The notes under the pieces: model-generated
Database searches by the model: none
Told to the model about the DNA's origin: nothing
Seen by the model: only the letters and a program-made list of their open reading frames with translations
Part shown: positions 1 to 48,334 of the stretch, in pieces
Layout: the number at the start of each line of letters is the position of its first letter
Position numbering within the stretch: position 1 is the stretch's first letter
Source: Clostridia bacterium
GTDB lineage: Bacteria; Bacillota; Clostridia; RGIG7378
Length of the DNA: 64,000 nucleotides
Direction: 5' to 3'
NCBI GenBank assembly: GCA_017559445.1
Contig: JAFYSJ010000022.1
Span: forward strand, 1 to 64,000
Program-made: the position numbers and the translations under genes

Positions 1-2
1 CA

Positions 3-122
3 GCTATTCCAGAAGAATATATTCAGTCTATAGCGTTAGAATTAAATTGTAGGCCAAGAAAATGTTTGGGATATCTGACTCCATATGAGATCTATAATTC
101 AACAGTGTTGCACTTAACTTGA
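3..122 (+). mobile_element. IS30-family transposase, C-terminal end (cut by window edge)
   Basis: The third frame is open from the window edge to a TGA at 120-122. It reads as a typical IS30 transposase tail, with the blocks LNCRPRKCLGY and TPYEIYN followed by the final VLHLT. In this family the C-terminal part of the DDE integrase domain ends with just such an RPRKxLxYxTPxE motif. The stop lies in TTGCACTTAACTTGACAATT, which may be the terminal repeat of the element, as IS30 ends often overlap the transposase stop. The rest of the element is outside the window, so it cannot be judged intact or broken. Confidence 0.8.
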
Positions 123-142
123 CAATTCAAGTGCAAAAAAAT

Positions 143-361
143 AGCGCAGCGGCCTACTAGCCGAAGGCGTTTCACTAGCGAGTGAAACGAGCGGATACTA
201 GCAACGCAGTTGCGGCCTACTAGCGCAGCGGACTACTAGCCGAAGGCGGCTCACTAGCGAGTGAAACGAGCGTATACTAGCAAGCCCCGCTTGCGGTTCA
301 CTAGCACCATCGGTGCGGCTACTAGCGAAGCGGCTCACTAGCCGAAGGCGGTTCACTAACA
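143..361. repeat. Array of about 11 CTAG-delimited short hairpin repeats
   Basis: Consecutive units of 19-27 bases are bounded by CTAG, usually as TACTAG or TCACTAG. Each unit starts with a small perfect palindrome: GCAACgcaGTTGC, GCAAGCcccGCTTGC, GCACCatcGGTGC, GCCgaaGGC or CGCaGCG. A longer hairpin, GTTTCACTagcgAGTGAAAC, spans one boundary and occurs twice in near-identical form. Several unit types recur, so the array looks mosaic. A second array with some identical units in the opposite orientation lies at 48147-48282. It sits between the IS30 end and the galE promoter. Its function is unknown; it is not a CRISPR, because there are no unique spacers. Confidence 0.85.
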
Positions 362-365
362 AGTT

Positions 366-394
366 TTGCTCTATACCATCATTTAGTATATAAT
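366..394 (+). promoter_or_regulatory. Candidate sigma-A promoter of galE operon
   Basis: TTGCTC at 366-371 and TATAAT at 389-394 are separated by 17 bases. The -10 box lies about 35 bases before the galE start, and AGGAG at 420-424 is the ribosome site. Confidence 0.65.
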
Positions 395-429
395 ACACTC
401 TGTATAAATTTATTTATCAGGAGATTCCT

Positions 430-1452
430 ATGCGCGTTCTTTTAACAGGCGGAGCCGGATACATCGGTAGCCATACAGCAGTTGAACTTATTAATGCAGG
501 TCACACACCTGTTATTGCAGATAATTATTCCAACAGTTGTCCTGAGGTTCTTAACCGTATTAAGGAGATCACAGGTGTAGAGGTTGAGGCACATGAGATC
601 GATATGTGCGATGCAGAGAAGGTAGACAAGCTTTTTGCTACTGGTGCTTTTGATGCAGTTATTCACTTTGCAGGCCTTAAGGCAGTAGGCGAGTCTGTTT
701 CCATTCCTGTTCAGTACTACAGAAACAACATCGACAGCACATTGGTGTTGCTGGATGCCATGACAAAGTACGGCGTAGCAAACCTTATTTTCAGTTCTTC
801 CGCCACAGTATATGGCAACCCCGAAAGGCTTCCTCTCACAGAGGATTGCGCCACAGGTGGATGCACTAACCCATATGGCTGGACAAAGTATATGATCGAG
901 CAGATTATCAGAGACGCAGCTAAGGCTAACCCCAATTTGTCTGCAGTTTTGCTTAGATATTTCAATCCAGTTGGAGCTCATGCCAGCGGACGTATTGGCG
1001 AGGATCCATCTGGTATTCCCAATAACCTCATGCCCTTCATTTCTCAGGTGGCAGTTGGTAGACGTACACACCTTAGCATTTTCGGCAATGACTATAACAC
1101 TCCAGACGGCACAGGTGTTAGAGACTACATTCACGTTGTGGATTTGGCTAGAGGCCACGTTGCATCATTGCCATATTGCGCAAGTCACAAGGGTAGCGTA
1201 GAGATTAACCTTGGCACAGGCACAGGCTATAGTGTTAAGGAAATGGCAGAGGCATTTGCTAGAGTTAATGACATTCCAGTTCCATATCAGTACGCACCTA
1301 GAAGACCTGGTGACATCGACGCATGCTATGCAGACCCAGTTAAGGCTAAGGAGCTTTTGGGCTGGGAGGCACAGCTTGGCTTAGAGGAAATGTGCAGAGA
1401 CACTTGGAATTGGCAGAAGAACAATCCCAACGGATACAAAGGAGCAAATTAA
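430..1452 (+). CDS. galE: UDP-glucose 4-epimerase
   Basis: This gene interconverts UDP-galactose and UDP-glucose in the cytoplasm (Leloir pathway and supply of galactose for envelope glycans). The 340-residue product has the normal family length. The NAD-binding Rossmann loop GGAGYIGSH is at residues 7-15. The catalytic set Ser124, Tyr149 and Lys153 falls at the same positions as in the E. coli enzyme (SSSATVYG and YGWTK). The ATG follows a good AGGAG and a consensus promoter. It heads a tight run of genes (nadK, lipoprotein, uppP, GT2), and its TAA overlaps the nadK ATG, so the two are probably translationally coupled. Confidence 0.97.
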   Translation: MRVLLTGGAGYIGSHTAVELINAGHTPVIADNYSNSCPEVLNRIKEITGVEVEAHEIDMCDAEKVDKLFATGAFDAVIHFAGLKAVGESVSIPVQYYRNNIDSTLVLLDAMTKYGVANLIFSSSATVYGNPERLPLTEDCATGGCTNPYGWTKYMIEQIIRDAAKANPNLSAVLLRYFNPVGAHASGRIGEDPSGIPNNLMPFISQVAVGRRTHLSIFGNDYNTPDGTGVRDYIHVVDLARGHVASLPYCASHKGSVEINLGTGTGYSVKEMAEAFARVNDIPVPYQYAPRRPGDIDACYADPVKAKELLGWEAQLGLEEMCRDTWNWQKNNPNGYKGAN

Positions 1453-5869: not shown

Positions 5870-5889
5870 TCAAACATAATTTAATAAAA

Positions 5890-5964
5890 TGCTGGGGGCG
5901 CGCCTTATGAGGTGCTGAGATATACCCTTTGAACCTGTTGAGATAATCCTCGCGTAGGGAAGCA
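5890..5964 (+). ncRNA. TPP riboswitch (THI element)
   Basis: The conserved core is present: CTGAGA and ACCCTTTGAACCTG, then GATAAT and CGTAGGGAAGC, with TGCT and AGCA closing the first helix. These bases bind the pyrimidine and diphosphate halves of thiamin pyrophosphate. It lies upstream of the thiamin transporter gene, with a terminator hairpin between them. Expression is therefore expected to fall when TPP is abundant. Confidence 0.96.
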
Positions 5965-5978
5965 ATCCTTTGATAACC

Positions 5979-30904: not shown

Positions 30905-30933
30905 TTGACAAATAGTCAAAAAAGTTTTAAAAT
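30905..30933 (+). promoter_or_regulatory. Promoter of rplJL operon
   Basis: TTGACA at 30905-30910 and TAAAAT at 30928-30933 are 17 bases apart. The predicted start lies just before the L10 leader. Confidence 0.85.
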
Positions 30934-30947
30934 TAAATAGTTGTTTT

Positions 30948-31068
30948 TGCCGTAGACGGCTGGTGTCCCTGGGACATAAAGATTTATCTGCCAGCTTAGG
31001 TGAGATTGATACGTAATTAGTGATTTTATGTAGCCATCTTATGTCTAGGCATGAGATGGCTATTTTTT
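30948..31068 (+). ncRNA. L10 leader (autoregulatory mRNA element) with attenuator
   Basis: The sequence between the rplJ promoter and gene has the Firmicutes L10-leader features: GCCGTAGACGGCTGGTG, the kink-turn region with CTGCCAGC and AGGTGAGA, and a terminator hairpin (TAGCCATCT at 31031-31039 with AGATGGCTA at 31054-31062, then TTTTTT). The L10(L12)4 complex binds the leader and reduces expression of rplJ and rplL when the protein is in excess. Confidence 0.92.
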
Positions 31069-31093
31069 ATAATTTGTACAGGAGGTGAATCAA

Positions 31094-45871: not shown

Positions 45872-47122
45872 GTGAAGTATAAGCCGGACCAAAGGACTAA
45901 GGATTTTTTGATAGGAGCAGGCCTTACAGGCGGAGCTTTAATCCTTTTAATATATGTGCTAAACAACATTTCTGTGGTTGCAGATGGTGTTAAGTACGTG
46001 GTGAGCGGTTTGTCCTCTGTTATCTTGGGCCTAGTTTTTGCTTATTTTCTAAACATTCCATGCAAGTGGATTGAGACTAGGATATTGGTTAGGATGCTGC
46101 CCAAGGCAAGTCTTGTGGCCAAGAGAACGATTTCCATTGTGGTCACATTGGTTTTGACTTTTGCGATCATTGCAGGGGTAATTTCTATTGTGTTGCCAAG
46201 GTTAATAAGCACATTGGGATTGCTTTTGGGTAACTTGGATTCATACAGAGCCAGCGTTATTTCTTGGGTGGAAAGGTTAGCAGATTCCACGAACCAAACC
46301 ATGGAAAGCAGCCTGATTAACACATTGACAGACAGCGTAGAGGACTTTATTTCCAAGTCTATGGCTAATTTGTCGTCCCTTCTGCCGGCTGCATTGTCGT
46401 CTGCGGCGGACATGGTTTCCACCATTTTCAACGTGGTTTTTGGCTTGGTCATATCCATCTATATCCTGGCTAGCAGGGAAAAGTTATGCGCTCAGGTCAA
46501 AAAACTAGCAACTGCTACTTTGCCAAAGGGGGCCATGGAGCGCGCTACGGAAGTGGTGCATGTTTTGGATGACACATTCCAGTCCTACCTAAGTGGGCAG
46601 ATAATAGACGCGGTGTTGGTTGGCGTGGAATGCTATGTTTTGTCACTGGTTTTTAATTTGCCATATGCGCCTCTTTTAGGAGTCGTAATTGGCCTTACAA
46701 ATGTGATCCCAATTTTGGGACCCTATATCGGGGGCATTCCTTGTGGGTTCATAGTATTGGTGGCAGGTTCGCCACTTAAGCTGATTATCTTCGCCGTAAT
46801 GGTCTTGGTAATCCAGCAAATAGACGGAAATATTGTTTCTCCCAGAATTATTGGAGATCGTACAGGGGTTCCCGGCCTGTGGGTTATTGTGGGAGTTATG
46901 GTGGGTTCGTATTTCTTTGGAATATTGGGTGTGCTCTTGGCCATTCCAGTAATTTCTGTGATGTTGAACCTAATTCGGGAGTTTACAAGCAAAAAGTTAG
47001 CTGCCAAAGGGGAGCCGTTGGAGACTACTGCGTATTACAAATACCCCGTACAGCAGCAGATTAAGGAAACTAAGGCCCGCAAAAGGGGGTCTCATAGGAG
47101 TAGGGAAGATGCAGAAGAGTAA
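45872..47122 (+). CDS. AI-2E/PerM-family membrane permease
   Basis: The 416-residue product has eight or so hydrophobic helices and the family C-terminal pattern, including LGVVIGLTNVIPILGPYIGGIP, IQQIDGNIVSPRIIG and GSYFFGILGVLLAIP (each shown in part). Relatives act as exporters of AI-2 or as Na+/H+ antiporters; the substrate cannot be told here. The start is GTG at 45872 with AGGAGG 4 bases before it. The C-terminal tail is basic and overlaps the mnmA start by 14 bases. Confidence 0.9.
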   Translation: MKYKPDQRTKDFLIGAGLTGGALILLIYVLNNISVVADGVKYVVSGLSSVILGLVFAYFLNIPCKWIETRILVRMLPKASLVAKRTISIVVTLVLTFAIIAGVISIVLPRLISTLGLLLGNLDSYRASVISWVERLADSTNQTMESSLINTLTDSVEDFISKSMANLSSLLPAALSSAADMVSTIFNVVFGLVISIYILASREKLCAQVKKLATATLPKGAMERATEVVHVLDDTFQSYLSGQIIDAVLVGVECYVLSLVFNLPYAPLLGVVIGLTNVIPILGPYIGGIPCGFIVLVAGSPLKLIIFAVMVLVIQQIDGNIVSPRIIGDRTGVPGLWVIVGVMVGSYFFGILGVLLAIPVISVMLNLIREFTSKKLAAKGEPLETTAYYKYPVQQQIKETKARKRGSHRSREDAEE

Positions 47123-48149
47123 CAGAGCTTTGGTTGCCATGAGCGGAGGAGTAGATTCCGCAGTTGCAGCCTTTTTGACCTTACAGGAGGCTCAGAGCTC
47201 TGCAGGTGCCATAATGGAACTGTGTTGCGGAGACAACAGCCAGCAGATTCAGTCGGCAAGGGCCATTGCCGATAGACTTGGCATGCCTTTCCACGTCCTT
47301 GACATGAGACAGGAGTTTTCTGAAAGCGTTATTCAAGACTTTGTGGACTGCTACGAAAGGGGTCACACTCCTAATCCATGCATCCGTTGCAATACAAAGA
47401 TTAAGTTTGGAAAATTTGTGGATTGGGCCAAGGAAAATGGTTTTGATTCTGTGGTCACAGGCCACTATGCACGCATTGAGAAAAAGGGAGATAGGTACCT
47501 TTTGCGCAAGGCTGTGGACGAGGCAAAGGATCAGAGTTATTTCCTCTACACATTGACACAGGAACAGTTGGAATGCGTTCGTTTCCCCTTGGGCGAAATG
47601 ATAAAGGAGCAGGCCAGGGAAATAGCAGAGGCAAACAGTTTCGAAAATGCCAAGCAGCGCGACAGTCAGGATATTTGCTTCGTTCCAGGCGGCGACTATG
47701 CATCTGTAATTAGGGAGCGCACAGGCAAGGAGTATGAGCCAGGCGAATTTGTGACGCCAGAGGGACAAGTTCTTGGCCAGCACAAGGGCGTGATCCACTA
47801 CACAATTGGTCAGCGTCGAGGCCTTGGCCTTGCAGTGCCAGAGTCTGTTTATGTACATAGGGTGGATGTGGAGAATAACAAGGTAATTGTTGGATCTGAG
47901 GACGCACTTTTTAGCAAGGAACTTATGGCCCATAGTGTAAATTGGGTTGGAATAGAGGAGCCTAAGGAGCCAGTTAGGGTGAAGGCTCGAGTTAGATACA
48001 GGCAGAAAGAGCAGTGGGCTTGGGCACAGGCTACAGGAGATGGCACCATGAAGGTGGTGTTTGACGAGCCACAGCGCGCCATTACACCAGGACAATCCGT
48101 GGTGTTGTACGACGGAGAGTATGTGGTTGGCGGAGGAGTGATTCAGTGA
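47109..48149 (+). CDS. mnmA: tRNA-specific 2-thiouridylase
   Basis: MnmA thiolates U34 of Glu, Gln and Lys tRNAs with ATP and a sulfur relay. The 346-residue product has the PP-loop AMSGGVDSAV (residues 10-19), the nucleophile Cys94 in CIRCNTKIKFG and Cys190 in DICFVPGGDY. Its stop codon TGA falls at the first base of the second CTAG hairpin array, and the last bases before it (CAGTGAACC) look like a repeat unit, so the array may even supply the stop. It overlaps the permease gene. Confidence 0.96.
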   Translation: MQKSNRALVAMSGGVDSAVAAFLTLQEAQSSAGAIMELCCGDNSQQIQSARAIADRLGMPFHVLDMRQEFSESVIQDFVDCYERGHTPNPCIRCNTKIKFGKFVDWAKENGFDSVVTGHYARIEKKGDRYLLRKAVDEAKDQSYFLYTLTQEQLECVRFPLGEMIKEQAREIAEANSFENAKQRDSQDICFVPGGDYASVIRERTGKEYEPGEFVTPEGQVLGQHKGVIHYTIGQRRGLGLAVPESVYVHRVDVENNKVIVGSEDALFSKELMAHSVNWVGIEEPKEPVRVKARVRYRQKEQWAWAQATGDGTMKVVFDEPQRAITPGQSVVLYDGEYVVGGGVIQ

Positions 48150-48282
48150 ACCACGAGCAAAGCTCGTTAGTGAACCGCTGCGCTAGTAGACCGCAAGCAA
48201 AGCTTGCTAGTATTCGCTCGTTTCACTCGCTAGTGAGCCGGACCTTCGGTCCTAGTAATCGCAACTGCGTTGCTAGTGAATA
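48147..48282. repeat. Second CTAG-delimited hairpin repeat array
   Basis: Six or seven units lie directly after mnmA in the opposite orientation to the array at 143-361. Hairpins include ACGAGCaaaGCTCGT, GCAAGCaaaGCTTGC, GCAACtgcGTTGC (the exact reverse complement of a unit in the first array), CGGACcttcGGTCC (with the outer pairs adjusted) and the CGCTCGTTTCACTCGC unit also found there. Boundaries read CTAGTGAACC, CTAGTAGACC and similar. The arrays are 48 kb apart, so this is a dispersed family. Confidence 0.85.
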
Positions 48283-48290
48283 CAGAAATT

Positions 48291-48334
48291 AAGGTGCTTA
48301 ATTAATGGGGAATTCATTGATTAGGCACTTTTTT
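48291..48334 (+). terminator. Terminator after mnmA and its repeats
   Basis: GTGCTTAATTAATG pairs with CATTGATTAGGCAC (two G-T pairs) around GGGAATT, followed by TTTTTT. The transcript would include the hairpin array in its 3' end. Confidence 0.92.

Follow-up and report, generated by a model that had tools for sequence, protein, structure and literature searches.

In the genome of a Clostridia bacterium, chains of very short hairpins form a family of extragenic repeats in which each run keeps a single orientation, the stems stay intact while the loops vary, GNA or GNNA loops prevail on one DNA strand, and identical units do not neighbour each other; on the AGTGA strand, the arrays tend to begin at the stop codons of genes. 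They are best read as a new, species-specific version of the hairpin arrays exemplified by the Rfam entry Gut-1. Probably, the arrays have grown one unit at a time at AGTGA sites. The fuller reading, in which this growth would pass through a single-stranded DNA hairpin stage and depend on an enzyme outside the families tested, with effects on the mRNA 3' end as a consequence, is assigned a probability of about 0.42, i.e., somewhat below even odds.

The stretch of DNA analysed here (the window) comprises the first 64 kb of contig C30 from a genome of 1,684,159 bases in 40 contigs (96.4% complete). The PDB entries nearest to its RpoB are 8i23 and 7l7b, from Clostridium thermocellum and C. difficile, in keeping with a Clostridia-like class. 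Array 1 (144..358, plus strand), delimited from the sequence with unit types set genome-wide, consists of 11 hairpins lying head to tail in one orientation, in agreement with the original prediction of about 11 units joined without spacers at 143-361. The hairpin cores are located at 144-150 (GC-GCA-GC), 160-168 (GCC-GAA-GGC), 178-192 (GA-mismatch type), 201-213 (GCAAC-GCA-GTTGC), 223-229, 239-247, 257-271, 280-294 (GCAAGC-CCC-GCTTGC), 304-316 (GCACC-ATC-GGTGC), 325-331 (GC-GAA-GC), and 341-349. The hairpins had been described as perfect; not all of them are, the GCGAGTGAAACGAGC type carrying two adjacent G-A mismatches. The tetranucleotide CTAG, rightly called rare (otherwise depleted in the window, with 134 occurrences vs. 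252 expected), is found 10 times within ca. 200 bases of array 1. Array 2, also recognized from the sequence, lies 48 kb away on the opposite strand (48147..48279, with the CTAGC strand on minus) and harbors six hairpins at 48153-48279, with cores at 48153-48167, 48177-48183, 48193-48207, 48216-48230, 48240-48252, and 48261-48273. Several hairpin types are common to both arrays, and the recurrence of unit types in a different order, noticed at first sight along with the inverse orientation, was borne out by reading the units.

Array 2 adjoins an mnmA-like gene coding for a tRNA thiouridylase (47109..48149, plus strand; Pfam PF03054, PF20258, PF20259), the stop codon of which falls inside the array: the first joint, AGTGA, overlaps the stop TGA at 48147-48149 (context CAG TGA ACC). 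A hairpin resembling an intrinsic terminator (48291..48331, plus strand), predicted by a consensus scan only, lies past array 2, so the array would fall in the 3' untranslated region of mnmA. Downstream of array 1, there is a galE-like epimerase gene (430..1452, plus strand; PF16363, PF01370). On its other side, at the contig end, array 1 adjoins the end of a mobile element (3..134, plus strand), comprising a transposase C-terminus and a terminal repeat, which we take to be IS30-like from its RPRK.LGY.TPYE motif; a Pfam search with the 39-residue transposase piece returned no match. Such an element end was seen only once among the stretches read from this genome, and a link between IS30 and the arrays was discarded. 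Elsewhere in the window, Rfam models matched a TPP riboswitch (5884-5977) and a ribosomal protein L10 leader (30932-31075).

The two arrays are far from being alone. The unit CTAGCCGAAGGCG is present in 100 copies in the genome, against none for the reversed control; the loose pattern CTAGCN{6,34}NACTAGC yields 605 matches vs. three, and the strict pattern 396 vs. none, so the case in which the genome would hold only two arrays is excluded. Reading of the window and 51 further stretches, chosen by one unit type and by the first listed places of two patterns, revealed 69 clusters with 644 joints, at least one of the clusters (in stretch L052, at about 583) being of the heptad kind described below. 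Together, the stretches and the window cover 312 of the 396 strict matches, i.e., about one-fifth of the family is unread. The arrays are intergenic; a few of them extend several codons into called open frames or underlie spurious-looking frames.

The repeating unit is composed of CTA, a hairpin, and a tail of 4–6 bases ending in A ahead of the next CTA (mainly GGTTCA, GGCTCA, GGCCTA, GGCCA, GTATA, or GGATA). The joint therefore reads (N)ACTA, the tail typically running into TCACT(A), with (T)AGTGA on the opposite strand. CTAG is seen at the joints because most stems start with G; its role as a fixed unit boundary, originally proposed, is ruled out by the units that start with CTAGG or CTAAC and share the same joint NACTA. 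There are about a dozen stem types with 2–6 pairs and loops of 3–4 bases, the main stems being GCAAC/GTTGC, GCC/GGC, GCACC/GGTGC, GC/GC, ACGAGC/GCTCGT, GCAAGC/GCTTGC, GGC/GCC, GGACC/GGTCC, GCGC/GCGC, and GAACGC/GCGTTC. The 5' arm is matched by an exact 3' arm in 64/65 copies for GCAAC, 60/60 for GCACC, 48/48 for GCAAGC, and 41/43 for ACGAGC, as well as in 21/22, 5/5, and 33/35 copies of three further types; in the GA-mismatch type, the inner pairs co-vary (GT..AC, AT..AT, AC..GT). In all seven types tested, the loops are more variable than the arms.

Orientation is uniform within a run, and only a few loci carry two opposed runs, which meet at L094:2384-2997, L056:8219-8707, L066:2216-2569, and L076:2424-2702. 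No usable link to the replication strand emerged: the CTAGC strand coincides with the C-rich strand in 41 cases and with the G-rich strand in 25, too weak a difference to build on. Heptad repeats (CACTAAA or CACTCAA; TTTAGTG, TTGAGTG, or TTTGGTG on the other strand) occur beside arrays in L044, L046, L048, L052, L071, and L072, often in the orientation opposite to that of the hairpin array. Mixed with the heptads are dispersed longer modules, such as GATGCTGCGCATC, CCGCTACTTCCGAAGCGCGGGAGGCACGG, and ATGTCCCTATGTTCCAATGGTCATTTC, many of them bounded by TAGTG or CACTA.

The order of units was assessed on 602 classified units in 80 runs (522 neighbour pairs) against 1000 within-array shuffles. 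Identical units were never neighbours (0/522; shuffle mean 19.2, minimum 9), and neighbours of the same type were scarce (23 vs. 75.9 in shuffles). At lag 2, the same-type count is normal (71 vs. 65.9), hence the ban on like neighbours extends over one unit only. The order of neighbours is non-random as well (mutual information 0.40 vs. 0.14 shuffled). Unit number and order vary from locus to locus: different arrays have in common four blocks of three identical units and two blocks of four, with none of five or six, which implies that the arrays are not copies of one another. At the same time, block repeats of period two and longer are found within arrays, e.g., in L062 and L080. Taken together, these data suggest that each array was put together separately from one shared pool of units and that some blocks were duplicated within arrays afterwards.

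The loops distinguish the two strands. On the CTAGC strand, 443 of 639 classified hairpins have GNA or GNNA loops (a figure including 48 GA-mismatch units, whose loops mostly have T-A as the closing pair), while only 19 of 639 would have such loops on the opposite strand; these sums leave out 56 mis-assigned matches, namely arms of another type picked up by the two-pair pattern. Nearly all loops of the GNA types start with G and end with A, and in three of these five types the middle base is variable; four hairpin types, with AAC or T-rich loops, are not of the GNA kind. Extraordinary stability has been reported for DNA mini-hairpins in which two or more G-C pairs close a GNA or GNNA loop; GCGAAGC melts at 78 °C (PMC4686876). 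The units of the GC-GNA-GC and GCGC-GNNA-GCGC form follow this loop-and-closing-pair rule exactly, and their stability is predicted from it; in the cited work, such mini-hairpins figure as a biophysical motif and an aptamer tool, not as a genome-wide array. The strand bias of the loops can be read as a sign of selection acting on single-stranded DNA. Weinberg and colleagues argued in the mirror direction for another motif, taking UUCG loops as pointing to RNA (PMC2864571).

Energy models draw a different picture. With DNA parameters, the strands are not separated (the top strand is more stable in 34 of 61 arrays), whereas with RNA parameters the AGTGA strand comes out as the more stable one in 55 of 61. 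For two-pair stems such as GC-GCA-GC, no fold is predicted with the RNA model, nor with the DNA parameters used. As a whole, the window array, for which folding had been suggested as a check, folds no better than shuffles (z of −0.59 for RNA on the minus strand and −1.40 for DNA on the plus strand). The loops of the AGTGA strand read TGC, TAC, and TTC, triloops for which we know of no RNA stability bonus.

The placement of the arrays relative to genes is likewise strand-dependent. Where a gene ends no more than 60 bases from an array, AGTGA is on its coding strand in 29 cases and on the opposite strand in five. A joint overlaps the stop codon in 15 of these 29 genes vs. 17 of 233 other genes (odds ratio 13.6, p = 1.8e-8). 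The distance from the stop to the first joint has a median of 33 on the AGTGA side vs. 120 on the other (p = 4e-5) and is 25 or less in 25/53 vs. 4/33 cases. Still, some arrays precede genes, array 1 being an example.

Within the class, the strict pattern is present in one of the 391 genomes (222 genera and 86 families listed). The one other genome of the genus and family searched (G001) gave no match to the array patterns; in a 212 kb sample of it, no 14-mer reached eight copies except for N runs, and a search for MnmA in this genome found nothing. Scanning 84,980 species genomes, a set that may lack the studied genome or its near relatives, returned three isolated matches; none of them lies in an array, and all three are put down to chance. 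Viral contigs gave no matches, and array 1 matched neither phages nor plasmids.

A similar plan written in other letters is, however, found elsewhere in the class. In G195, a genome from another family, AATATCACT serves as the linker between hairpins, among them CGCC-GCCA-GGCG, CCGC-GCA-GCGG, and CGAC-GAA-GTCG; the 401 kb read contain eight such arrays with 63 joints. Their loops are GNA or GNNA in 43 of 55 cases vs. two, and the same stem never stands beside itself (0/47; shuffle mean 3.9, lowest 0, not significant alone), but the stop-codon bias was not confirmed (6 vs. 2 cases, p = 0.29). A G195 array matched one phage record and no plasmids. Similar arrays were recorded in G070, G098, and G043 (third family). 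The plan is thus seen, with linkers of another sequence, in two more families (f14 and f5). The generic scan for GCGNAGC clusters that led to G195 gave matches in 40 of the 391 genomes; stretches were read from 10 of these 40, and many of the other listed places look like coding repeats. A generic scan for three TCACT copies has no control, since the pattern is identical when read backwards; many of its matches are ordinary sequence, and only some of the listed places were read. Other kinds of repeats turned up in the same survey: in L126 and L127 of G264, runs whose perfect hairpins are longer, have unrelated stems, and carry GAA loops (GGGCGC-GAA-GCGCCC or GATTTGC-GAA-GCAAATC, for example); short repeats around TGTCATCCTGAGCGAAGC, many also with a GCGNAGC core (L128-L131 and L135 of G213, G286, G055, and G100); and ATATCACT-type hairpins in two opposed runs about a fixed centre, near tRNA genes or tRNA-like matches (L136, L137, L140).

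The arrays of G195, G070, and G043 gave 11 matches to Gut-1 (RF01706) above the gathering score of 50 bits. Its description gives Gut-1 as a noncoding RNA with three hairpins, listed for the human gut only (PMC2864571). The Rfam model has three hairpins and GUGAAAU linkers, with the sRNA annotated on the AGTGA strand. The arrays of our genome follow the same plan, i.e., a chain of short hairpins, a short linker often retaining the GTGA core on the annotated strand, and mostly GNA loops on the opposite DNA strand. They differ in the rest of the linker, which is TAGTGAACC-like, in the greater number of units, and in having about a dozen stem types. They are unmatched by Rfam (the window, L044, L048, L055, L056), and a permissive Gut-1 search of window positions 1-500 and 13 of the 51 stretches found none. 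The search of open-licence literature yielded no description of these arrays. The suggestion of a new repeat family thus stands in part: the arrays searched have no Rfam match and are not REP by definition, but their plan is not unique, being shared by the f14 and f5 arrays, parts of which are Gut-1.

With REP and BIME elements, the arrays share several reported traits: short palindromes outside genes, copy numbers in the hundreds, clustering, and sub-families with different stems (PMC2817692, PMC3733652, PMC6006769). However, the REP rule as formulated in PMC6006769 places GTAG or GTGG 0–2 nt before the hairpin. The joint found here is NACTA/TAGTGA, devoid of such a head, and the stems have 2–6 pairs instead of the basal 7–20 pairs (loop 2–5) of REP. 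BIME units alternate, whereas the units of our runs share one orientation; CRISPR combines a constant repeat with unique spacers, whereas these arrays have no spacers and draw variable units from a limited set, and the original view that neither form fits is upheld. Intrinsic terminators end in T runs; here, the hairpins are followed by tails of the GGNNYACTA type, and the terminator-like site near array 2 is outside the array. IS200/IS605 elements are reported to use single-strand DNA hairpins by a short cleavage or guide tetranucleotide (PMC6006769), a resemblance accompanied by a difference, as neither TnpA nor TnpB was found in our genome. Overall, the arrays work like Gut-1-type arrays and are placed like REP, and by the tests made they are members of neither.

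A transposase or reverse transcriptase flanked by the arrays, suggested as something to look for, did not appear. Searches of the genome for the Y1 transposase (PF01797, the RAYT domain; 5 of 14 controls matched), reverse transcriptase (PF00078), and TnpB (PF07282) all returned zero, a result that is not final for any of the three, the genome being a draft. PF01797 does match in all nine genomes compared. Among 17 Y1 loci checked, only a transposase remnant with internal stops in G098 adjoins an array of GNA hairpins, joined by ATTTCAT (L148, about 1148-1200). None of the other 16 is flanked by a TCACT-joined array, L150 showing a single ATATCACT hairpin at its edge.

Several other explanations of the arrays have to be weighed. 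Their maintenance for an RNA function, in which hairpin chains following a stop codon would shield the 3' end of the mRNA, hold back ribosomes at the stop, or insulate neighbouring genes, as proposed for REP and implied by the annotation of Gut-1 as an sRNA on the AGTGA strand, would account for the sense-strand placement at stop codons, the position of array 2 between the mnmA stop and the terminator-like hairpin, and the RNA-model preference for the AGTGA strand; ribosome stalling is reported for REPs within 15 nt of stop codons (PMC12306157). We consider this explanation rather unlikely, given that the loops fitting the DNA rule sit on the other strand, that two-pair stems lack a predicted RNA fold, and that unit number and order differ between loci, with some arrays preceding genes. 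Growth without any mobiliser, by hairpin-promoted replication slippage or template switching together with recombination between identical joints, agrees with the block repeats inside arrays, the non-random neighbour order, and the failure to find a candidate enzyme. Nevertheless, it appears unlikely, since slippage should make identical neighbours common while none are seen, blocks are rarely common to different arrays, and the appearance of new sites at stop codons is left unexplained.

An REP-like family left behind by a lost or diverged IS200/REP-associated tyrosine transposase seems quite improbable, in spite of the hairpin units, their extragenic location in more than 100 copies, the Y1 matches in the compared genomes, the G098 remnant, and the report that GTAG REP termini, too, supply TAG stop codons (PMC3733652). 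The absent GTAG/GTGG head, the short stems, the lack of PF01797 matches in our genome, and the 16 unflanked Y1 loci speak against it. The chance that the arrays are an assembly artefact of a draft genome is practically negligible: several of the 40 contigs do end inside arrays, but at dozens of places arrays with intact units are flanked by ordinary genes in the interior of contigs, and a second genome (G195) displays the same design.

In the preferred reading of unit-by-unit growth, the unit would act as a single-stranded DNA hairpin. Single units from a common pool would be added at AGTGA sites, mainly those at stop codons, and every addition would recreate the site, resulting in head-to-tail growth by one unit per step. 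Some activity or deletion bias would remove identical neighbours or prevent them from arising, although the self-exclusion could also stem from slippage deletion. Once transcribed, the arrays would set hairpin after hairpin in the 3' untranslated region, and they might supply the stop codon. This reading is favoured by the copy number relative to the control, the conservation of the arms, the retained G and A of the GNA loops and their fit to the DNA rule, the exclusion of like neighbours, the scarcity of blocks common to different arrays, the placement at stop codons, and the same traits in other letters in G195; it is weakened by the missing mobiliser, the energy models giving no support to the DNA strand, the window array folding no better than shuffles, the non-GNA types, and the unconfirmed stop-codon bias in G195. 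A bolder version can be put forward only tentatively: the arrays may represent mobile or self-spreading single-strand-DNA mini-hairpins of many stem types, entering singly at AGTGA stops, forbidding identical neighbours, and moved by an enzyme not yet recognised, with several families of one class, differing in linkers, using the same device and the Gut-1 “RNA” being one of its DNA-level dialects.

The finding unites Gut-1, an orphan in Rfam, with a repeat absent from catalogues in one testable design, in which different DNA mini-hairpins form chains on one strand and are placed at stop codons. Slippage would produce the reverse of the strict exclusion of identical neighbours, which points to a specific process of building or clean-up. 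The finding also names the strand and the chemistry (single-stranded DNA vs. RNA) to probe.
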